Origin: a bacterium | Lineage (GTDB): Bacteria > UBA9089 > CG2-30-40-21 > SBAY01 | Direction: 5' to 3' | Length of the DNA stretch: 28,434 bases | Assembly: GCA_040757115.1 (NCBI GenBank) | Contig: JBFLYA010000020.1 | Location: 2,264-30,697 of the forward strand | Shown: piece by piece, positions 10,891 to 26,532 of the stretch | Layout: every line of letters begins with the position of its first letter | Position numbering within the stretch: position 1 is the first letter of the stretch | Notes under the pieces: model-generated | Database searches by the model: none | Seen by the model: the letters and a program-made list of their open reading frames with translations, nothing else | What the model was told of the DNA's origin: nothing | Made by a program: the position numbers and the translations under genes

Positions 10891-12195
10891 ATGGAAACAT
10901 CATGGAATAGTAAACATATTCTAAAGGTTCAAGATGACCGTGAGCCAAATATAGTGGAAGAGCCAGATATCAAAAAACATCGGCAGCGTGTTGAACCATG
11001 GCTAACAGCTCTCTTCCAAAGCGATCATCTTTCTTTATTGGTGGGGTCAGGACTTTCATTAGCTGTTCATAAGCTTGCTACAGGGAATTCTGGTGAGGGG
11101 ATGGCGAAAATAGCATTCTCTGTTTTTAAGGAACAAATGGATACCTGTGTTGTTGAGGCAGCCAGAAAAGCTGGACGAGGGAATGGGAACATTGAAGATC
11201 AGATACGTGTTGCTAATGATTTATTGCAAGGATTGGAAATATATACATCAACAGGTGTGTTCGGCTCAAAAAAGATTAAAAAAGAAATGGGGAAATTCAA
11301 AGAAGAAATTAATTCAGGATTGTTTGAATTTGTAAAAAGAATTCTTCAGACAGAAAAAAATATTGTGAATGCATCTAACCCTAAAGCTGCTGAATACTTG
11401 TTGAACTTTATGGTTAGTTTTGCTAGTCGATCTGGCACGCGAGAACGTTTAAACATTTTTACTATTAATTATGATCGTGTAGTCGAATTTGGTGCAGAGT
11501 TAGCAGGTATTCGTTTGATTGATCGGTTTGTTGGAACGGTAAATCCCATTTTTCATTCGTCACGCTTAGAGATCGATATGCATTACAATCCCCCTGGTAT
11601 TCGTGGAGAACCACGCTATCTAGAAGGAGTCGTACATTTTGCGAAGTTGCATGGCTCTTTAGATTGGGTTTATCAAAATGGAAATGTCAGACGCATATCA
11701 GTGCCTTTTGGGGCTGAAACAGTTGAATCGTATTTTACTTTGTTGGATGGAGAAAAGCCTAATGCACAGTCATTAATGATTTATCCTAATGCATCAAAAG
11801 ATCGTGAAACCTCTGAATATCCATATGTTGAGCTTTTTCGAGATTTGGCTGCAGCCATTTGCCGTCCTAACTCAACTGTGATATTGTATGGATATGGCTT
11901 TGGCGATGACCATGTTAATCGTGTTATTAAGGATATGCTAACAATACCGTCTAGTCATCTTGTTGTTATTTCTTATAATGATGAGGGCGATAGAATTCAA
12001 AGATTCTATGATGATGCAAAACGGCCAGCACAAACAACGCTTCTAATTGGTGAACATTTTGGGAATTTAAAAACACTCGTTGATGGTTATCTTCCTAAGC
12101 CAGCGATTGATCGAACTACTTTTCGTATGGTTGATCTTCTCAAGTCAAGAGGGGTTATTGTTGACGAGCATAAAGAAAAGGAAGGTGAACAATGA
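10891..12195 (+). CDS. SIR2-family NADase effector of a SIR2-HerA defence system
   Basis: A 434-residue SIR2_2-type protein. The nucleotide-binding loop is LLVGSGLS (near residue 50); FTINYDRVVEFG carries the conserved N-Y-D; KLHGSLDW holds the catalytic histidine; VILYGYGFGDDHVNRVI is the usual C-terminal Rossmann signature. In this family bacterial SIR2 proteins paired with HerA hydrolyse NAD+ on phage infection (established for SIR2-HerA systems); here the role is inferred from the pairing. A GGGGGTG ribosome site precedes ATG 10891, and the stop overlaps the HerA start by 4 nt, so the two are translated together. All motifs look intact. Confidence 0.88.
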   Translation: METSWNSKHILKVQDDREPNIVEEPDIKKHRQRVEPWLTALFQSDHLSLLVGSGLSLAVHKLATGNSGEGMAKIAFSVFKEQMDTCVVEAARKAGRGNGNIEDQIRVANDLLQGLEIYTSTGVFGSKKIKKEMGKFKEEINSGLFEFVKRILQTEKNIVNASNPKAAEYLLNFMVSFASRSGTRERLNIFTINYDRVVEFGAELAGIRLIDRFVGTVNPIFHSSRLEIDMHYNPPGIRGEPRYLEGVVHFAKLHGSLDWVYQNGNVRRISVPFGAETVESYFTLLDGEKPNAQSLMIYPNASKDRETSEYPYVELFRDLAAAICRPNSTVILYGYGFGDDHVNRVIKDMLTIPSSHLVVISYNDEGDRIQRFYDDAKRPAQTTLLIGEHFGNLKTLVDGYLPKPAIDRTTFRMVDLLKSRGVIVDEHKEKEGEQ

Positions 12196-14327
12196 GTTTT
12201 ACTCCTATAGAATATTCTTCATCTTTGCGAATTGGAACTGTTGAGTTTGTGGCTCCTGATGAAATAAAAGTTTCACTTGATTTAGAATCACCTGATGGGA
12301 TTGCCGCAAATGCAGGAGTGCCTCGTTCATTTCCTCGCATAAATAATTATGTTATTGTTCCATCGGAGGCAGGGTATATTGTAGGGCAAATTGAATGGAT
12401 CGCTGTTGAGCGTTCCCCTTTCCCAAAGCGTAAGGGTTTCCAGGATTATGGCTTGGTGGACCTCCCTTTTCCTTTACGGAAAATGCGAGTTAACCCCCTT
12501 GGTATATTAAAGGTTGATGAAGATGATAACTTTCTGTTTCGGCGTGGTGTGCAAACATTCCCCAGCATAGGCGAACCTGTGTTGATGCCTACAGATAAAC
12601 AGCTTCGTGCTATTGTTGAATCCGGCGAAAAACGTAGGGTAAAGATAGGAACCAGTCCTTTAGCCGCTAATGCGGATGTGTGTATTGATCCAGATAGACT
12701 TTTTGGCCGGCATTTAGCAGTTTTAGGGAATACGGGAAGTGGGAAATCATGTTCAGTTGCTGGTTTAATCCAATGGTCGTTAGATGCAGCTAAAAAAGAT
12801 GAGCGTAATCCTAATGCACGGTTTATTATACTTGACCCAAATGGTGAATACTCAAGAGTATTTAAGGATAGAGGTCGCATTTTTACAGTGAATGCGACTG
12901 ATAACCCTTTACAAGTGCCGTTATGGTTTTGGAATAGTGCTGAATGGTGTTCGTTCACTCAGGCTAGCGCAAAGGCACAACGGCCGTTATTGAAAAGGGC
13001 TCTCAGGGAGATTAGAATCGGGAGGTCAGATTTGACTGTCTCAACTGAAGAGGCTCAAAAACTTGAACTCAGACGCTACCTTTCATCAAATATGATCTCT
13101 ATACGAAACGACTTACAGAGTGGTGCGATAAGAACAGATGAGTCAAAGTTTGGGTTCCGGTTAAAAGCTATTCTGAATGATTTAGATGTTAAGAAAACCG
13201 TCTTTACAACATATAATATCCAGAATATTTGCGATAAAATCAAGACGGCCTTGACTGCTACCTACAAAGAGTTCACTGAAAAGCCCACAAACAAATTAGT
13301 AGAATACTATCGTGCTTTTACTGAAGAACAAGTCAATGATATATTAAATGCGTTGAACAATGTTTTTCAAGACCTTGGAGGAATTGTTTATCAAGAAGGC
13401 CCTGATGAAGATATTCCTATTTCTTTCTCTGGTGCTGAGTTTTCAGATCATCTTCAGAGTTTGGCTGAACAAGAGAATGTGAGCCAGTTCCTTGACTTTT
13501 TGATAATGCGGATTCGAACAATGCTTGCCGATACTCTTATGAAGAAAATCATCGGAGATGAAATTAACATTACCCTTGATAAATGGCTGGAAGATTATAT
13601 TGGGAAAAATAAAGCAGAGAATGGTTGTGTTACCGTCATTGATCTTTCTCTGGTTCCCACAGAAATTATACATATTACAATTGCAGTAATTGCTCGTATA
13701 ACATTCGAAGCCTTGCAACGGTATCGAAAGCTTGAAAACAATCCTTTGCCTACGGTAATGGTTATGGAGGAAGCTCACACATTTATTAAACGATACAAGG
13801 AAGATGTTGAAAATCAGAACACTGCTGCTATTTGTTGTCAAGTATTTGAGAAAATAGCGATGGAAGGGCGCAAATTTGGGTTAGGTTTAGTCCTATCTTC
13901 GCAACGTCCATCAGAACTTTCTTCAACAGTTCTCTCACAGTGTAATAGTTTTCTCTTGCATCGCATTAGTAACGATCGTGATCAAGAATTGATAAATAAA
14001 TTAGTGCCAGATAACCTTCGCGGATTGTTACGTGAGTTACCTTCTTTGCCCTCTCAAAATGCAATCTTATTGGGTTGGGCATCTGAACTCCCTGTCATGG
14101 TTAAGATGAATGATCTTTCCGACGAAGAAAGACCGCACTCAGATGACCCTGATTTTTGGGATGTTTGGACTGGAGAGAATATCGAGGGAGAAAAAGTGGT
14201 TCGTGAAGTTAATTGGAAAAAGATTGCTGATGAATGGCAATGTAAGGATGCATCTACAATCGCAAAGAGTGACAAAGTGGAGGATTTGGAACAAAACACA
14301 GAGGGAATGGATGATGTACCGTTTTGA
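12192..14327 (+). CDS. herA: HerA-like hexameric ATPase of a SIR2-HerA defence system
   Basis: A 711-residue HerA/FtsK-type ATPase. The N-terminal ~100 residues form a HAS-barrel-like region. Walker A is GNTGSGKS at 179-186, followed by FIILDPNGEYSRVF. Walker B with the glutamate pair is VMVMEEAH (E526-E527). Sensor and arginine-finger regions follow (GLGLVLSSQRPSELSSTVLS, HRISNDRDQELI). HerA assembles as a hexameric ring and partners with SIR2 in anti-phage systems. The last ~15 codons (EDLEQNTEGMDDVPF) are not HerA-like: they match the end of the DUF4263 fragment at 24489-24536, so the HerA 3' end was fused in frame to the 1.2 kb direct repeat. The long middle insert, roughly residues 255-500, is charged and helical. 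Confidence 0.87.
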   Translation: MSFTPIEYSSSLRIGTVEFVAPDEIKVSLDLESPDGIAANAGVPRSFPRINNYVIVPSEAGYIVGQIEWIAVERSPFPKRKGFQDYGLVDLPFPLRKMRVNPLGILKVDEDDNFLFRRGVQTFPSIGEPVLMPTDKQLRAIVESGEKRRVKIGTSPLAANADVCIDPDRLFGRHLAVLGNTGSGKSCSVAGLIQWSLDAAKKDERNPNARFIILDPNGEYSRVFKDRGRIFTVNATDNPLQVPLWFWNSAEWCSFTQASAKAQRPLLKRALREIRIGRSDLTVSTEEAQKLELRRYLSSNMISIRNDLQSGAIRTDESKFGFRLKAILNDLDVKKTVFTTYNIQNICDKIKTALTATYKEFTEKPTNKLVEYYRAFTEEQVNDILNALNNVFQDLGGIVYQEGPDEDIPISFSGAEFSDHLQSLAEQENVSQFLDFLIMRIRTMLADTLMKKIIGDEINITLDKWLEDYIGKNKAENGCVTVIDLSLVPTEIIHITIAVIARITFEALQRYRKLENNPLPTVMVMEEAHTFIKRYKEDVENQNTAAICCQVFEKIAMEGRKFGLGLVLSSQRPSELSSTVLSQCNSFLLHRISNDRDQELINKLVPDNLRGLLRELPSLPSQNAILLGWASELPVMVKMNDLSDEERPHSDDPDFWDVWTGENIEGEKVVREVNWKKIADEWQCKDASTIAKSDKVEDLEQNTEGMDDVPF

Positions 14328-14441
14328 AAATTTCAAGACTATGATAAAGAGCCAGAATTGTAGTGCTTGACATTATCTTCTTTAATCCTGACAATCTGCG
14401 GTCATCTGCGTCCTATAAAGAGAAAGATAAGGAAGGTATAG

Positions 14442-14600
14442 ATGCTATACTTATATCTTGATGAAAGTGGAGATTTAGGGTTTGATTTCGTGAATAAGAG
14501 ACCATCAAAGTATTTCACGATAGCCATTCTTGTGGTAAAAGGATATGAAGAAAACCGATTACTGTTAAAGGTAGTAAAGAAAACTTTAAGTCGAAGATAA
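14442..14600 (+). pseudogene. Truncated DUF3800 gene (copy 1)
   Basis: A 52-residue frame begins MLYLYLDESGDLGFDFV, which is the N-terminus of DUF3800 (conserved D-E-S-G near the start), and runs through SKYFTIAILVVKGYEENRLL. It stops at TAA 14598-14600, whereas full proteins are usually over 200 residues. The terminator of the minus-strand RNA begins 24 nt later, so that element may have replaced the rest. The copy at 24651 is truncated at the same codon. Confidence 0.75.
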
Positions 14601-14624
14601 GGTATGATTCTGTTTATTTGCCAT

Positions 14625-14718
14625 AAAAAAGAGCGTGCCTTGTGGGCTTGTTGCGCTGTGGCTTTTGCCAACCGATGGATGGGAACACCACAGACAACCC
14701 ACAACGGGCTTACCGCTC
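14625..14718 (-). ncRNA. Small hairpin RNA, copy 1
   Basis: Read on the minus strand, a GC-rich (~59%) ~88-nt hairpin ends in U6. Nested stems are GAGCG/CGCTC, GCC/GGC, TTGTGGG/CCCACAA, CTGTGG/CCACAG and an apical CCATCC/GGTTGG with one mismatch. Asymmetric bulges (GUAA on the 5' side, a single A on the 3' side) argue against a simple inverted repeat. A consensus promoter is correctly spaced upstream. It does not resemble 6S, 4.5S/SRP, tmRNA or tRNA. Function unknown; it is convergent with the truncated DUF3800 gene and divergent from the AlbA_2 gene. Confidence 0.65.
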
Positions 14719-14725
14719 AATTAAT

Positions 14726-14754
14726 AATATACTACATTTTGCTTCATTTGTCAA
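14726..14754 (-). promoter_or_regulatory. Consensus promoter for the hairpin RNA, copy 1
   Basis: On the minus strand: TTGACA (14754-14749), exactly 17 nt, TATATT (14731-14726). The first hairpin base, G14718, is 8 nt past the -10 box, a normal start position. Confidence 0.7.
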
Positions 14755-14821
14755 GCACTTTTTTTTTCAAAGTCGAGTTGTCATTTGCATTACATTTTCT
14801 ATCAAAAGCAGGAGCGATTAA

Positions 14822-14905
14822 CCCATACCTCCAGAAGAAGCAATGCAATTATTAGAGAACAAAGAAACCCAAATGGTTAAATACATGATTGGAGAAACGA
14901 TATGA
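14822..14905 (+). pseudogene. Tail of a lost upstream gene (copy 1)
   Basis: After an in-frame TAA, this reads PIPPEEAMQLLENKETQMVK then YMIGETI and a TGA overlapping the AlbA_2 start (ATGA). The same peptide, with mainly synonymous or mild changes, ends just before the AlbA_2 start at 25037-25120 and again near 26538-26610. It looks like the 3' end of a gene once translationally coupled to AlbA_2. I do not recognise the family. Confidence 0.5.
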
Positions 14906-15483
14906 CCAAAGAACAACTCCATAAACTAATTGCCCAAGGAGAAGGGCAGCGGTTAGAGTTCAAAAAATCTGTTGCTGAATTAGATAGGATTATTCAGACT
15001 TTAGCTGCCTTTGCTAATACCAATTCCGATGGCGGATGTGTCCTCATTGGAATAGGGGATAGGGGCAGAGTCAAAGAAGTGATAATTGGCAGAGAAACAG
15101 TAAGGCAAATAGCCAATAAAATCGCAGCTCATACTGACCCTGTTCTTTACCCTGAGATTGAAGTGATAAAGGAATCGGGGAATAAAGGTATCATCGTAAT
15201 CACCATAGATGGAAGTCCTAATAAACCCCATTTAGCCTTTGGCCGGGCATATAAAAGGGTAGGTTCTACCACCACACAAATGACCAGAGCAGAATATGAG
15301 AATCTGCTGTTAGCAAGACACAAAGATAAGTTTCAATTTGACTCTCAGGTTTGTGAAGGAGCTGATTTAGAAGATATTGATGAAGAAAAGGTAAGGTGGT
15401 TTTTGAGAACAGCTAAGACTAAGAGAGGATTAGCGATAGAGGAGAATGCATCTATAGCGGTTATTAACTGGAAGTTTACATAG
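14902..15483 (+). pseudogene. AlbA_2 regulator, truncated copy
   Basis: 193 residues beginning MTKEQLHKLIAQGEGQRLEF and covering the AlbA_2 DNA-binding domain (FANTNSDGGCVLIGIG, GSPNKPHLAFGRAYKRVG). It parallels the full 471-residue protein at 25117-26532 to about residue 175, then diverges into ENASIAVINWKFT and stops. The ATPase-like and winged-helix parts are missing. It may still make an isolated AlbA_2 domain, but most likely it is the broken end of the repeat. The palindromic repeat cluster starts ~30 nt later. Confidence 0.75.
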
Positions 15484-15510: not shown

Positions 15511-15697
15511 ATAATTGTTCCGTTAGGAACATAATATCGGTAGGAATAGATAGACAAATCAATCAGTTCCGTAGGAACGATATATTGGTAGAAAATTTAT
15601 GGAAAGCCATTTACCGATATATTGTCCCTATGGGACATTATTTGTATGATATTTATTTCTACCGATATGTTGTCCCTATGGGACATTATTTGTATTT
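15511..15697 (+). repeat. Cluster of four REP-like palindromes in opposed orientation
   Basis: Palindromic cores are at 15516-15531 (TGTTCCGTTAGGAACA), 15566-15578 (GTTCCGTAGGAAC), 15623-15637 and 15671-15685 (both TGTCCCTATGGGACA). The first two are followed by an ATAT(C/T)GGTAG tail; the last two are preceded by its reverse complement, TACCGATAT. The last two units agree over ~36 nt. The head-to-head layout resembles REP doublets rather than CRISPR. It fills the gap upstream of radC. Confidence 0.75.
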
Positions 15698-15781: not shown

Positions 15782-16501
15782 ATGAATAAGAAAAAGATAT
15801 ATCCAAAAGCAATACTTAATTGGCCGGAAGATGAGAGACCCAGGGAAAGGCTGCTTAAATATGGCGAGCATACCCTTAGCAACTCCGAACTATTGGCAAT
15901 ACTTTTGCGAACAGGCGTCCAGGGCCAGAGCGCTATAGACCTGGCAAGGGAAATACTGCAAAAATTCAAGACTTTTCGTAATTTATCGCATACCGATTTG
16001 TCCCATTGGAAAGAATTCAAAGGCCTTGGCCAGGCCAAGATTGCCCAGATAAAAGCAGCCATTGAAATAGGAAGAAGATTTAGAGAAGAAATAGTAAAAG
16101 AAAAAAAGATTAAGATAAGCTCTTCAAAAACCGTGGCAGATATTTTAATGCCGAGAATGAGGGATTTAAAGAAAGAAATCTTTAAAATCTTACTCCTGAA
16201 TTCACAAAATACAGTTATTGATATTGTAGAAATTACCGAAGGGACGGTTAATAAGGCAGACCCTATCATTCGAGAAATTTTCCAAAAGGCATTACAGTCT
16301 TTTGCTGTCTCTATAGTTTGTGTTCATAATCATCCCTCTGGTGATGTTTCTCCAAGCAAAGAAGACAGAGACTTTACAAGTGAGTTATGCAACGCAGGCA
16401 ACATAATACAGGTAAAGGTATTAGACCACATTATTATCGGTGATAATGAGTATTATAGTTTTGCAGATAAAGGTGAGCTTTATAAAAGGAGTTTTCAATG
16501 A
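15782..16501 (+). CDS. radC: RadC family JAB-domain protein
   Basis: A 239-residue RadC/DUF2466 protein. The N-terminal UPF0758 region has PRERLLKYGEHTLSNSELLA and LLRTGVQGQSAIDLA, a helix-hairpin-helix-like FKGLGQAKIAQIKAA, and a JAB metalloprotease-like domain with VCVHNHPSGDVSPSKEDRDF (H-x-H-P-S-G and the downstream S and D). Its stop overlaps the hsdM start by 4 nt (16498-16501), so it is the first gene of the type I operon. RadC-like genes are common in mobile and defence islands; the biochemical role is still debated. It looks intact. Confidence 0.88.
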   Translation: MNKKKIYPKAILNWPEDERPRERLLKYGEHTLSNSELLAILLRTGVQGQSAIDLAREILQKFKTFRNLSHTDLSHWKEFKGLGQAKIAQIKAAIEIGRRFREEIVKEKKIKISSSKTVADILMPRMRDLKKEIFKILLLNSQNTVIDIVEITEGTVNKADPIIREIFQKALQSFAVSIVCVHNHPSGDVSPSKEDRDFTSELCNAGNIIQVKVLDHIIIGDNEYYSFADKGELYKRSFQ

Positions 16502-18472
16502 ATCACGCAATTCATAATGCTATAGTAAATTTTATCTGGACAATAGCAGATGATGTTCTGCGAGATGTTTATGTTCGGGGAAAATATAGAGATGTTATCC
16601 TGCCAATGACGGTCATTCGCCGTTTCGATGCAGTGTTAGAGCCTACTAAAGAAGCAGTTCTTAAAATGAAAGAACATCTTGATGCTTCCAGAATATCCAA
16701 TCAGCATATTGCCTTATGCCAGGCTTCTGGACAGGCTTTTTACAACACCTCACCATTTACCCTTCGGGACTTAAAAGCCCGGGCAAAAAAGCAGCAACTG
16801 AAAGCAGACTTTGAAGCATATCTGGATGGTTTCTCTCCCAATGTGCAAGAAATCCTGGATAAGTTTAAATTTCGCAATCAGATACCGACAATGATAGAGG
16901 CTGATATCCTTGGACATGTTATTGAGAAATTTCTTGATCCGGTAATCAATCTAAGCTCAAAGCCGGTTTATGATGCAAACGGAAATGAAAAACTTCCAGT
17001 CTTAGATAATTATGACATGGGGACGATTTTTGAAGAGTTGATTCGCCGCTTTAATGAAGAGAATAATGAAGAAGCCGGGGAGCACTTTACCCCACGAGAT
17101 GTAGTTACGCTTATGGCAAATTTGGTTTTTCTTCCCGTTGCAGATAACATAGAGTCAAATACATATCTTATTTATGACGGTGCCTGCGGCACAGGCGGTA
17201 TGTTGACAGTTGCAGAAAATATTCTTGCAGAATTAGCCAAAAAGCATAATAAAGATGTTTCCATCCATCTCTATGGGCAAGAAATCAATCCTGAAACCTT
17301 TGCCATCAGTAAGGCAGATCTTTTATTAAAAGGAGAAGGTGAAGAAGCGGAAAATATGAAATTTGGCTCCACCCTTTCTGCGGATGCGTTTCCATCTCTT
17401 GAATTTGACTTTATGCTCTCCAATCCTCCCTATGGCAAGAGTTGGAAGACAGATTTGGAAAGGCTTGGTGGAAAGAGAGATTTTTATGACCCACGTTTTA
17501 TAATTAGCTATGCCGAGAATCCTGAATTTAGCTTGATAACCAGATCAAGTGATGGACAACTTATGTTTTTAGTGAATAAATTAAGCAAAATGAAGCACAA
17601 TACACCCTTAGGAAGCCGTATAGCTGAGGTTCATAACGGGTCATCGCTGTTTACCGGTGACGCAGGCCAGGGAGAAAGTAATATTCGGCGATGGATTATT
17701 GAGAACGATTGGCTGGAGGCTATTATCGCTTTGCCCGAAAATATGTTCTACAATACAGGTATTGCCACTTATATCTGGGTGCTTACTAATCGCAAAGCAG
17801 AGCACCGCAAAGGTAAAATCCAACTTATTGACGCCAGGGGGGTGGTATGATTCTTTACGAAAGAATTTAGGTAAGAAGAATTGTGAATTTGCAGAAGGCC
17901 ATATCCGGAAAATATGCGATTTATTGCTTTCTTTTAAAGAGACCGAGCAGTCAAAGATATTTCCTAATGAGGCATTTGGGTATTGGAAGATAGTTGTTGA
18001 ACGGCCGCTTAGATTTAAAGGAATTGACCCAAATAGAGAATATAACGCTAAAGAAATCAAAGAAATGGTTACTAAAGGACTGGCTGATGAAAATGGTGTG
18101 CCTGCAATTAAAAAAATCCATAACCCCGGCAAGACTTCCGCTAATCCTTTCTATGGTCTGTTTGAAATTGAAATTGACGGTAAGAAATGTGTGGTTGAGT
18201 ATGAACCAGATACATCTTTGCGCGATACAGAACAGGTGCCCCTACTTGAAGATGGCGGTATTGAAGCGTTCTTTAAGCGAGAAGTATTACCTTATGTGCC
18301 AGATGCCTGGCTTGATAGGTCAAAAACCCAGATTGGCTATGAAATCTCTTTCACCAGGTATTTTTATAAGCCACAGAATCTACGAACGCTGGACGAGATT
18401 ACCGCGGACATCCGGGCACTGGAGGCCGAGTCTAAAGGATTGCTGGAGCGCATCATCAAGGAGGCAGAATAA
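16498..18472 (+). pseudogene. hsdM: Type I restriction N6-adenine methyltransferase HsdM, frameshifted at a G6 run
   Basis: HsdM methylates adenine within the site read by HsdS. HsdM_N features (DVLRDVYVRGKYRDVILPMT), AGEHFTPRDVV, SAM motif I GACGTGG (just after D227) and NPPY (N309-Y312) are intact. At 17837-17842 a run of six Gs shifts LIDARG into GVV-stop at 17850. With five Gs the text continues ARG-WYDSLRKNLGKKN into the second frame, which runs to the TAA at 18470-18472. So one extra G splits an otherwise complete ~658-residue protein. This could be a real mutation, a reversible phase-variable state or an assembly error; G6 is short for phase variation. The first part alone (450 residues) retains both catalytic motifs. 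The end overlaps the next ATG by 1 nt. Confidence 0.85.
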
Positions 18473-24169: not shown

Positions 24170-24536
24170 GAAGAACAAAAAAAACTCATCGAAATCTTTG
24201 AAGCAAAAATCAAAGCAGTCAACTGAGATAACAAAAGCCATCACGCAGGCGACAAGATATATTTACGAAGTGGAGCGTGAGGCAAACAGCGTTAAATTCT
24301 TGGAGAGAATGGACAATGTCAAAACTATAAAGCCTCGCTGTATTTTGATATTTGGTAGATCAAATAACTGGAATGATGAGCAAAAAGAGGCATATCGCAT
24401 TTTAAATTCAAGTTATCACAATTTAATGATAATGACTTATGACCATGTATTATTGAGAGCAAAGAGGATTTTAAATATTGACACACCGGAAGATTTGGAA
24501 CGAAATACAGAGGGAATGGATGATGTGCCGTTTTGA
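24150..24536 (+). pseudogene. Shedu-type (DUF4263) C-terminal fragment
   Basis: From about residue 28 the frame reads KAITQATRYIYEVEREANSV, then IKPRCILIFGRSNNWNDEQK and LMIMTYDHVLLRAKRIL. This matches the C-terminal part of the DUF4263/SduA domain of Shedu anti-phage nucleases. The upstream half with the catalytic E-x-K core is missing. The first ~25 residues (K/S/Q-rich) are the hsdR 3' flank read in another phase, so the junction lies near 24226. Its last 16 codons belong to the direct repeat. Not expected to be active. Confidence 0.65.
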
Positions 24537-24650
24537 AAATTTCAAGACTATGATAAAGAACCAGAATTGTAGTGCTTGACATCATCTTCTTTAATCCTGA
24601 CAATCTGCGGTAATCTGCGTCCTATAAAGAGAAAGGTAAGGAAGGTATAG

Positions 24651-24809
24651 ATGCTATACTTATATCTTGATGAAAGTGGAGATTTAGGGTTTGATTTCGT
24701 GAATAAGAAACCATCAAAGTATTTCACGATAGCCATTCTTGTGGTAAAAGGATATGAAGAAAACCGATTACTGTTAAAGGCAGTAAAGAAAACTTTAAGT
24801 CGAAGATAA
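24651..24809 (+). pseudogene. Truncated DUF3800 gene (copy 2)
   Basis: The same 52-residue fragment as at 14442, differing at two residues (K for R at 20, A for V at 44), and ending at the same TAA. The truncation therefore preceded the duplication. Confidence 0.75.
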
Positions 24810-24833
24810 GGTATGATTCTGTTTATTTGCCAT

Positions 24834-24929
24834 AAAAAAAAGAGCGTGCCTTGTGAGCTTGTTGCGCTGTGGCTTTTGCCAACCGATGGATGGGAACACC
24901 ACAGACAACCCACAACGGGCTTACCGCTC
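24834..24929 (-). ncRNA. Small hairpin RNA, copy 2
   Basis: The minus-strand counterpart of the RNA at 14625-14718, with a U8 rather than U6 tail. The one stem substitution changes CCCACAA to CUCACAA opposite UUGUGGG, replacing a G-C pair by G-U, so pairing is kept. The promoter and all other stems are unchanged. Confidence 0.65.
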
Positions 24930-24936
24930 AATTAAT

Positions 24937-24965
24937 AATATACTACATTTTGCTTCATTTGTCAA
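24937..24965 (-). promoter_or_regulatory. Consensus promoter for the hairpin RNA, copy 2
   Basis: Minus strand TTGACA (24965-24960), 17 nt, TATATT (24942-24937), unchanged from copy 1, whereas the T-run and a short CAAAGT duplication just upstream differ between copies. Confidence 0.7.
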
Positions 24966-25036
24966 GCACTTTTTTTCAAAGTCAAAGTCGAGTTGTCATT
25001 TGCATTACATTTTCTATCAAAAACAGGAGCGATTAA

Positions 25037-25120
25037 CCCAAACCTCCGGAAGAAGCGGTCCAATTATTAGAGGACAAAGAAACCCAAATGGTTAAATACA
25101 TGATTGGAGAAAAGATATGA
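25037..25120 (+). pseudogene. Tail of a lost upstream gene (copy 2)
   Basis: Reads PKPPEEAVQLLEDKETQMVK then YMIGEKI and a TGA overlapping the AlbA_2 ATG. Equivalent to 14822-14905. Confidence 0.5.
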
Positions 25121-26532
25121 CTAAAGAACAACTCTATAAACTAATTGCTCAAGGTGAAGGGCAGCGGTTAGAGTTCAAAAAATCTGTGGCTGAATTGAAC
25201 AGAATCATTCAGACCCTGGCTGCCTTTGCTAATACCAATTCCGATGGCGGATGTGTCCTCATTGGAATAGGGGATAGTGGCAGAGTCAAAGAAGTGATAA
25301 TTGGCAGAGAAACAGTAAGGCAAATAGCCAATAAAATCGCAGCTCATACTGACCCTGTTCTTTACCCTGAGATTGAAGTGATAAAGGAATCGGGGAATAA
25401 AGGTATCATCGTAATCACCATAGATGGAAGTCCTAATAAACCCCATTTAGCCTTTGGCCGGGCATATAAAAGGGTAGGCTCTACCACCACACAAATGACC
25501 AGGGATGAATATGAGAGGTTGTTGTTAGTAAAACATGAAAATAAGTTTCAATTCGATTCTCAGGTTTGTGAAGGATCTACCATTGAAGATATTGACGAAG
25601 AAAAGATGAAATGGTTTTTGAGAATTGCAAGAGCAAAAAGGGGGGTAACATTAAACGACGAGATCTCTGTGGAGGAATTTCTAATACATCTACAGCTTGT
25701 AAGTAAAGCTGGGTTGACTAATGCGGCAGTTATGTTGTTTGGCAAAAGTCCACATCGGTTTTTCTTGCAATCTGAAATTAAATGTATTGCTTTGCCTACT
25801 ATGGAGTTTATAAAACCCTACACTACTTATCAGGCTCATGGAGGTAATTTATTTGAACAGGCTGATAAAACATTGGCATTTATTCTTGATAATATAAAAA
25901 GACCACTATGGATTAAAGCAGGAGAAATGACAGCGAGACACCCTTATGAAATACCTGAAGAAGCAGTACGAGAGGCAGTCGTTAATGCCATCATCCATAG
26001 AGATTATATGAGCCCTTCCAAGGTGCAAATCAGAGTATTTCCAAACAGAGTTGAGATATGGAATCCAGGAAAGCTGCCACCTCAACTAAGCGTTGATGAT
26101 CTAAGGAAACCCCATCCGTCGCTACCGTACAACCCTTTACTTTTCAGACAGTTTTATAGAGCCAGTTATGTTGAAGATGTTGGCGGTGGAACTATCGATA
26201 TCATTAAGAGTTGCACGGACGCCAACTTACCGGAACCAAAATTTGAACAGAAAATGGGAAGTTTTATTCTTACAATATATCGTTCACCCTTGACAGACGA
26301 ATATCTTGATAATAAGAAGCTCAGTGAGAGGCAAAAGAATTCGATTAGTCATATTGAGAAGCATGGAAAGATGGGGCGGAAAGAATATGAAGAATTATAC
26401 AATGTTTCAGGAAGAACTGCTAACAGAGAATTGAATGATTTGTCTAAGAAAGGTCTAATCAAAAAAATAGGTAGTGGCCCAGGCACATACTATGTTTTGG
26501 CGAGATATGGCGAGATATGGCGAGATAAATAA
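25117..26532 (+). CDS. AlbA_2/RecG-like ATP-binding transcriptional regulator, full length
   Basis: 471 residues. The AlbA_2 domain covers ~15-130 (GQRLEFKKSV, FANTNSDGGCVLIGIGD, HLAFGRAYKRVGS). The GHKL/HATPase_c_4-like domain follows (IPEEAVREAVVNAIIHRDYM, VEIWNPGKLPPQLSVDDLRK, YNPLLFRQFYRASYVEDVGG). A C-terminal winged helix (GRKEYEELYNVSGRTANREL) ends the protein. Such proteins are putative DNA-binding regulators frequent in defence islands. The last ~10 residues (LARYGEIWRDK) come from a 10-bp tandem repeat. This is the intact version of the broken copy at 14902 and of the stubs at 26607 and 27747. Confidence 0.83.
   Translation: MTKEQLYKLIAQGEGQRLEFKKSVAELNRIIQTLAAFANTNSDGGCVLIGIGDSGRVKEVIIGRETVRQIANKIAAHTDPVLYPEIEVIKESGNKGIIVITIDGSPNKPHLAFGRAYKRVGSTTTQMTRDEYERLLLVKHENKFQFDSQVCEGSTIEDIDEEKMKWFLRIARAKRGVTLNDEISVEEFLIHLQLVSKAGLTNAAVMLFGKSPHRFFLQSEIKCIALPTMEFIKPYTTYQAHGGNLFEQADKTLAFILDNIKRPLWIKAGEMTARHPYEIPEEAVREAVVNAIIHRDYMSPSKVQIRVFPNRVEIWNPGKLPPQLSVDDLRKPHPSLPYNPLLFRQFYRASYVEDVGGGTIDIIKSCTDANLPEPKFEQKMGSFILTIYRSPLTDEYLDNKKLSERQKNSISHIEKHGKMGRKEYEELYNVSGRTANRELNDLSKKGLIKKIGSGPGTYYVLARYGEIWRDK
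26498..26527 (+). repeat. Three tandem 10-bp repeats at the 3' end of the AlbA_2 gene
   Basis: TGGCGAGATA occurs three times. The unit is not a multiple of three, so loss or gain of a copy changes the C-terminal frame and stop. Confidence 0.85.

Follow-up and report, generated by a model that had tools for sequence, protein, structure and literature searches.

The window analysed here, a stretch of 28,434 nt from a bacterial contig, is by its gene content a defence island. Genes encoding SIR2 and HerA, a known anti-phage pair, occupy positions 10891-14327 of the plus strand (PADLOC SIR2, E 4e-161; HerA, E 6e-265), and the window also encodes type I restriction-modification (R-M) genes with a RadC-like gene, a Snf2-type helicase and AlbA_2 (Schlafen) genes, one of which (14902-15483, plus strand; Pfam PF04326) is truncated compared to the copy at 25117-26532; the defence-gene setting named in the original prediction was thus borne out. 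In the type I R-M operon, hsdM appears to be split into two overlapping frames of 450 and 271 aa (16498-18472), probably by a frameshift, and beyond the truncated AlbA_2 gene a 36-nt unit (TACCGATATATTGTCCCTATGGGACATTATTTGTAT) occurs as inverted and direct repeats (15519-15695).

Two copies of a small RNA gene lie on the minus strand, copy 1 with a 99-nt core at 14626-14724, adjoining the truncated AlbA_2 gene, and copy 2 at 24837-24935. In each copy a TTGACA -35 box (14749-14754 and 24960-24965) is separated by 17 nt from a TATATT -10 box (14726-14731 and 24937-24942), as read from the sequence and from a promoter scan of 40 homologues, and is followed by a nested hairpin of about 95 nt and a terminator tract, U6 and U8, respectively. 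The U6 tract of copy 1 (14625-14630, minus strand), placed by sequence and by alignment with the related locus L004, overlaps the ancestral stop codon of a DUF3800 gene at 14624-14626 of the plus strand. Minimum free energies of the predicted hairpins were -39.3 kcal/mol (z -4.3) for copy 1 and -36.3 kcal/mol (z -2.6) for copy 2, with all base pairs being standard in both. The sole difference between the copies within the 99-nt RNA turns a G-C pair into G-U, and the flanking A/T runs are of unequal length. The promoter, hairpin, U-tracts, single stem substitution and drifted runs had all been described in the original prediction, and the sequence analysis supports its view of a promoter-driven, terminator-ended structured small RNA with a conserved fold.

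The same prediction had found no match to common RNAs, which proved wrong, since both copies far exceed the cut-off of 37.4 bits for the Rfam covariance model RF02964 (DUF3800-V RNA), scoring 75.9 bits (E 7.8e-16) and 73.7 bits (E 3.5e-15) over model positions 1-96 of 96 and resembling the family end to end in sequence and structure. Hence, the window RNAs are members of a catalogued family and represent no new class; the covariance-model search that had been proposed did return a conserved family, but one already listed in Rfam, where it has the sister families DUF3800-I to -XI. Another contig of the same genome carries a diverged third copy (54.5 bits) with intact pairs and a promoter of its own (TTGACA-17-TATAAT); no DUF3800 match was obtained on this 6.8-kb contig. 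Weinberg et al. reportedly described DUF3800 motifs in 2017, and no function was assigned to DUF3800 RNAs in the literature searched.

The truncated DUF3800 gene noted earlier beside the RNA was confirmed, and alignment with the intact gene of L004 identified the lesion as an internal deletion. An N-terminal remnant of 52 codons followed by TAA (14442-14600, plus strand; PF12686, E 2e-4), with 88% identity to residues 1-52 of the L004 protein, is fused at a TTTA microhomology (14585-14588) to the last 13 codons of the gene, leaving a C-terminal remnant (FKSKIRYDSVYLP and stop, 14585-14626, plus strand) that is now out of frame, with about 470 bp gone. In two relatives from the same small phylum the DUF3800 gene is intact (212-216 aa) and the RNA lies immediately beyond it in convergent orientation. 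The N-terminal remnant of copy 2 (24651-24809, plus strand) has the same deletion junction, as determined by copy-versus-copy alignment and tblastn, and since the junction is common to both copies, a single internal deletion most likely destroyed the partner gene before the crippled module was duplicated. Compared to the usual RF02964 module, the window differs both in its internally deleted partner gene and in the duplication of the module inside a larger block.

Identity profiles place the two copies of this block at approximately 14285-15375 and 24494-25590, a span of about 1.1 kb comprising the end of the HerA gene, the DUF3800 remnant, the RNA and the start of the AlbA_2 gene, with 96-100% identity over most of the length and fading on both sides. 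The duplication is hence segmental and either recent or homogenised, and the near-identity of the two RNAs is by itself no evidence of selection. At the left edge of the block, the HerA gene ends in NTEGMDDVPF, as does an unrelated ORF of 128 aa (14285-14327 and 24494-24536); this tail resembles the C-terminal tip of SSB.

When the intact protein was used to scan one genome per species, 31 loci were recovered from Planctomycetes, Actinomycetota, Nitrospinota, Omnitrophota, Patescibacteria, Elusimicrobia, Calditrichota, Margulisiibacteriota and others, although single organism labels may be wrong, as nearly all loci come from metagenome-assembled genomes. In a separate plasmid search, one plasmid was found to encode a 48% identical DUF3800 protein and three more distant ones were also detected. 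Among viral contigs and phages no relative was detected at the sensitivity used, and a viral or phage element was rejected on this basis. The RNA was convergent with the DUF3800 gene (about 215 aa), tail to tail and 1-41 nt from its stop, in all 27 loci that have a full-length or nearly full-length gene together with its 3' flank, three of which (L007, L025 and L030) bear small nonsense or frameshift lesions. Among 40 aligned RNAs, two-sided compensatory changes were observed at 22 of 24 pairs, and 96.5% of cells could pair compared to 76% in shuffled and 25-45% in slid controls, counts which are biased towards the model to which the alignment was fitted. A promoter score of at least 9 of 12 was reached by 35 of the 40 homologues as compared to 31% of shuffles, with the -10 box usually ending a few nucleotides from the start of the RNA model and the U-tract following the closing stem; the covariation and sigma70-like promoter on which the original prediction had staked itself are thus found in the family, the promoter in most homologues. 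Furthermore, protein and RNA distances were correlated (Mantel r 0.57, 0 of 2000 permutations as high), and two unpaired RNA motifs, GUAAG-CC and GUGUUCCC, are conserved.

The DUF3800 partner is predicted to have an RNase HII-like fold. An AlphaFold2 model (pLDDT 91), built from an alignment that excluded the plasmid homologue, gave RNase HII as its best match (Foldseek E 8e-7; Z 13.1, 3.1 A over 167 residues), with RNase HII matches reaching Z 11-13 over 150-167 residues and with weaker similarity of the model to Argonaute PIWI domains; a shared fold by itself shows no function. No solved relative was found in the PDB by sequence. Invariant residues include the acidic D7, E8, E65, D137 and D183 as well as H170, and the N-terminal D-E pair (LDESGD) recalls the RNase HII motif, without residue-by-residue mapping. 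The protein also matched PADLOC DUF3800_VII weakly (E 2.4e-4); in type VII retrons, a DUF3800 effector is accompanied by a reverse transcriptase, and the msr-msd RNA lies beside the DUF3800 gene. The RNase H fold of DUF3800 in Cas12a2-linked proteins and an association with putative non-coding RNAs were already noted in Science (PMC10910872), a 2025 classification names DUF3800 among the accessory components of certain V-A2 and VI-F loci (PMC12669027), and a role in interference or crRNA biogenesis has been proposed for DUF3800 in Cas12a2 loci (PMC10910872; PMC12669027).

The convergent arrangement extends to other DUF3800 subfamilies. A strong convergent sigma70-like promoter was present 60-175 nt beyond the stop of 15 of 21 broadly sampled PF12686 genes, compared to 10 of 234 other genes serving as controls (P 2e-13). 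One of the 20 loci scanned for DUF3800 RNA families gave a match above cut-off (DUF3800-IX in L128), L146 gave a weak DUF3800-IX match, and the DUF3800-IX RNA of L111 is convergent as well. Several of the remaining loci are candidates for new DUF3800 RNA types, recognised by eye and by promoter score rather than by covariation: L121, L122, L125, L126, L144 and L148 have a convergent promoter and hairpin just beyond the DUF3800 stop without an Rfam match, and L122 and L125 have a GGGGUGUC-type segment in common. The convergent RNAs of L136, L140 and L146 share a UUCC-CCU...AGCCC...GGGAGGUC-like pattern and by sequence look like divergent DUF3800-IX. A search for DUF3800-I in 290 genomes gave no match; its controls were also silent, and the result hence has no bearing on absence.

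In an unbiased scan of 386 genomes, 11 DUF3800-V RNAs were detected, only two of which face an intact cognate DUF3800 gene. Eight face a gene that is deleted, frameshifted or undetected (the window pair, G000:C200, G309, G390:C42, G191, G231 and G195), and the remaining RNA (G390:C62) directly adjoins an open gene that is DUF3800-like but belongs to another subfamily. Conversely, all seven intact DUF3800 genes retrieved from the 386 genomes with a profile, divergent subfamilies included, had a convergent promoter-hairpin-terminator unit beside them, and none was found without an RNA. This asymmetry is in keeping with an antitoxin but no proof of one, since the six-fold larger target offered by the gene predicts the same outcome; target size alone gives P of about 0.37 for zero RNA-first losses in seven events, and one-sided orphaning was therefore rejected as proof of a toxin-antitoxin pair. 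RNAs next to broken or absent genes had kept 98% of their pairs and had similar promoter scores, although a few of them had weak promoters or terminators. L116 (708-1599) contains a DUF3800-V RNA without a clear terminator 83 nt past an open DUF3800-like gene of another subfamily (DESGNF type), which is either a relic that happens to adjoin an unrelated module or the result of a partner swap.

R-M and CRISPR genes were enriched near DUF3800-V modules, and N6 methylases made up 8 of 94 neighbour proteins but none of the 118 control proteins drawn from those genomes (P 0.001). The module lies 15 nt after the HsdS gene in L011, between apparent hsdM and hsdS genes in L014, upstream of Cmr2-like genes in L022 and L023, and 127 nt after cas7 in L030 (3924-7482), where the DUF3800 gene is frameshifted near its start and the operon is a probable type I-C cas operon. 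In roughly one third of the loci the DUF3800 start is found 3-41 nt past an upstream gene on the same strand, and the gene is for this reason probably expressed from the upstream operon, with the RNA having an opposing promoter of its own. As to the partner of the RNA, of the two neighbours named in the original prediction the DUF3800 gene is the evident one, being intact and convergent in relatives and internally deleted in the window, whereas regulation of AlbA_2 found little support, as an AlbA_2/RecG-like gene was seen next to just one further copy. An antisense or cis-regulatory role towards AlbA_2 was rejected as poorly supported, since nearly every homologous locus has a different neighbouring gene, the exception being that orphan. 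The copy in question (L117, 1951-3009) adjoins its AlbA_2/RecG-like gene much as in the window.

The presence of a gutted nuclease-like gene beside an intact RNA suggests that the RNA normally restrains the nuclease. We tentatively favour, at somewhat under an even chance, the explanation that the DUF3800-V RNA restrains an RNase H-fold nuclease in a toxin-antitoxin-like manner within defence islands, for which the abiF-motif RNA RCd22, known to neutralise its toxin by direct binding, provides a precedent (PMC12373285). The DUF3800 nuclease would probably be made from the transcript of the host operon, while the self-terminating RNA of about 95 nt would be transcribed towards its gene from its own strong promoter, fold as a nested hairpin, and bind and restrain the nuclease much as an RNA antitoxin would. 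On this explanation, the modules move between phyla and settle in R-M and CRISPR operons, where the pair may have an effector role in defence or act as an addiction guard, and loss of the nuclease gene is tolerated and frequent, with orphan RNAs like those of the window accumulating as a result. Some observations speak against an antitoxin. Orphan RNAs retain nearly all of their pairs, although a useless relic of toxin loss would have no need to, barring a recent loss or some other role for the RNA, and in known type III systems the RNA is found upstream of the toxin gene and in its orientation instead of convergently. The RNAs of the window may be orphans that still function, or relics. That they are non-functional and survive only through recent deletion and duplication is a real possibility, short of probable, in view of the dead partner gene in both copies and of their divergence at 1 of 99 positions; nevertheless, both copies, and the diverged third one as well, still have all their pairs and the promoter, with the caveat that intact features alone are no sign of selection on a recent pair.

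The strongest rival holds that the RNA is a required cofactor and forms with DUF3800 a ribonucleoprotein nuclease in which activity or substrate recognition depends on the RNA. The conserved unpaired motifs, the strict pairing of RNA and gene and the RNase H-fold accessories of Cas12a2 loci (PMC10910872; PMC12669027) are all consistent with this, but a pure cofactor would be expected to decay together with the enzyme, whereas RNAs with their fold and mostly with their promoter outlast deleted or absent genes, and we regard a cofactor as rather unlikely. We give still less credence to a mobile element composed of DUF3800 and RNA, the internally deleted copies of which would be non-autonomous derivatives comparable to small insertion-sequence derivatives. 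Such an element would account for the patchy spread over phyla and for one KSB1 genome with eight diverged copies, of which five have a full-length gene while three have lost internal or terminal parts of it but retain the RNA; similarity between copies extends from near the start of the gene to near the RNA promoter and stops there. However, no conserved terminal sequence was seen upstream of the gene or past the -35 box, and the window pair moved within a larger block and not as a module. An RNA-guided nuclease, in which the RNA would direct DUF3800 to a target as omega RNA does for TnpB or IscB, might be suspected from the predicted RNase H-type fold with its weaker PIWI similarity and from the RNA adjoining the gene. 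Within the RNA, however, no variable unpaired stretch exceeds 2 nt, and as the -10 box and the U-tract abut the closing stem, no room is left for a guide from flanking DNA; a guide RNA was thus rejected for want of a variable segment and seems highly improbable.

In a broader form of the antitoxin explanation, DUF3800 genes would generally belong to two-gene modules, each with a gene for an RNase HII-like nuclease and a convergent structured RNA driven by a promoter, the RNAs being of many families with several outside Rfam; the RNA would neutralise the nuclease, the modules would act as addiction guards or effectors in R-M and CRISPR operons, and orphans like those of the window would persist by protecting the cell from incoming DUF3800 modules. 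We consider this generalisation unlikely as a whole. In the window the RNA has been naturally parted from its gene, and the survey shows convergent RNA-nuclease pairs to be widespread, with an RNase HII-like fold in the partner model, a preference of the module for defence operons and an RNA that frequently persists after the gene is lost. Should the antitoxin explanation be true, DUF3800 would constitute a widespread RNA-controlled nuclease family.

Among known systems, the abiF-motif RNA RCd22 (RF03085; PMC12373285) is likewise a structured RNA of about 100 nt with a sigma70-type promoter, a terminator, a toxin-like neighbour and a defence context. It lies, however, upstream of the gene and on the gene's own strand, and its transcription can continue into the gene, while DUF3800-V RNA is downstream and convergent, and its partner is an Abi_2 protein for which neutralisation has been demonstrated, compared to a predicted RNase H fold and a putative neutralisation for DUF3800-V. 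The type III toxin-antitoxin systems ToxIN, CptIN and TenpIN also pair an RNA with a nuclease-like protein, but their RNA, encoded ahead of the toxin gene in the same orientation, is usually made of tandem repeats, as opposed to the single, convergent copy of DUF3800-V, whose gene has no repeat array upstream, and the DUF3800 model best matches RNase HII and not a ToxN-type fold. RNase HII and RNase H2 themselves resemble DUF3800 in predicted fold and in the N-terminal D-E pair, at an identity of about 12%, and the dedicated RNA partner is on the DUF3800 side. Omega RNAs of TnpB and IscB carry a guide segment, in contrast to the DUF3800-V RNA, whose promoter and terminator abut its closing stem. 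Finally, the CreTA guards of CRISPR-Cas are likewise small modules in defence operons (PMC9458426), although CreTA consists of two RNAs and is Cascade-dependent, whereas the DUF3800-V module, in which no crRNA-like repeat was seen, is composed of a protein and an RNA.
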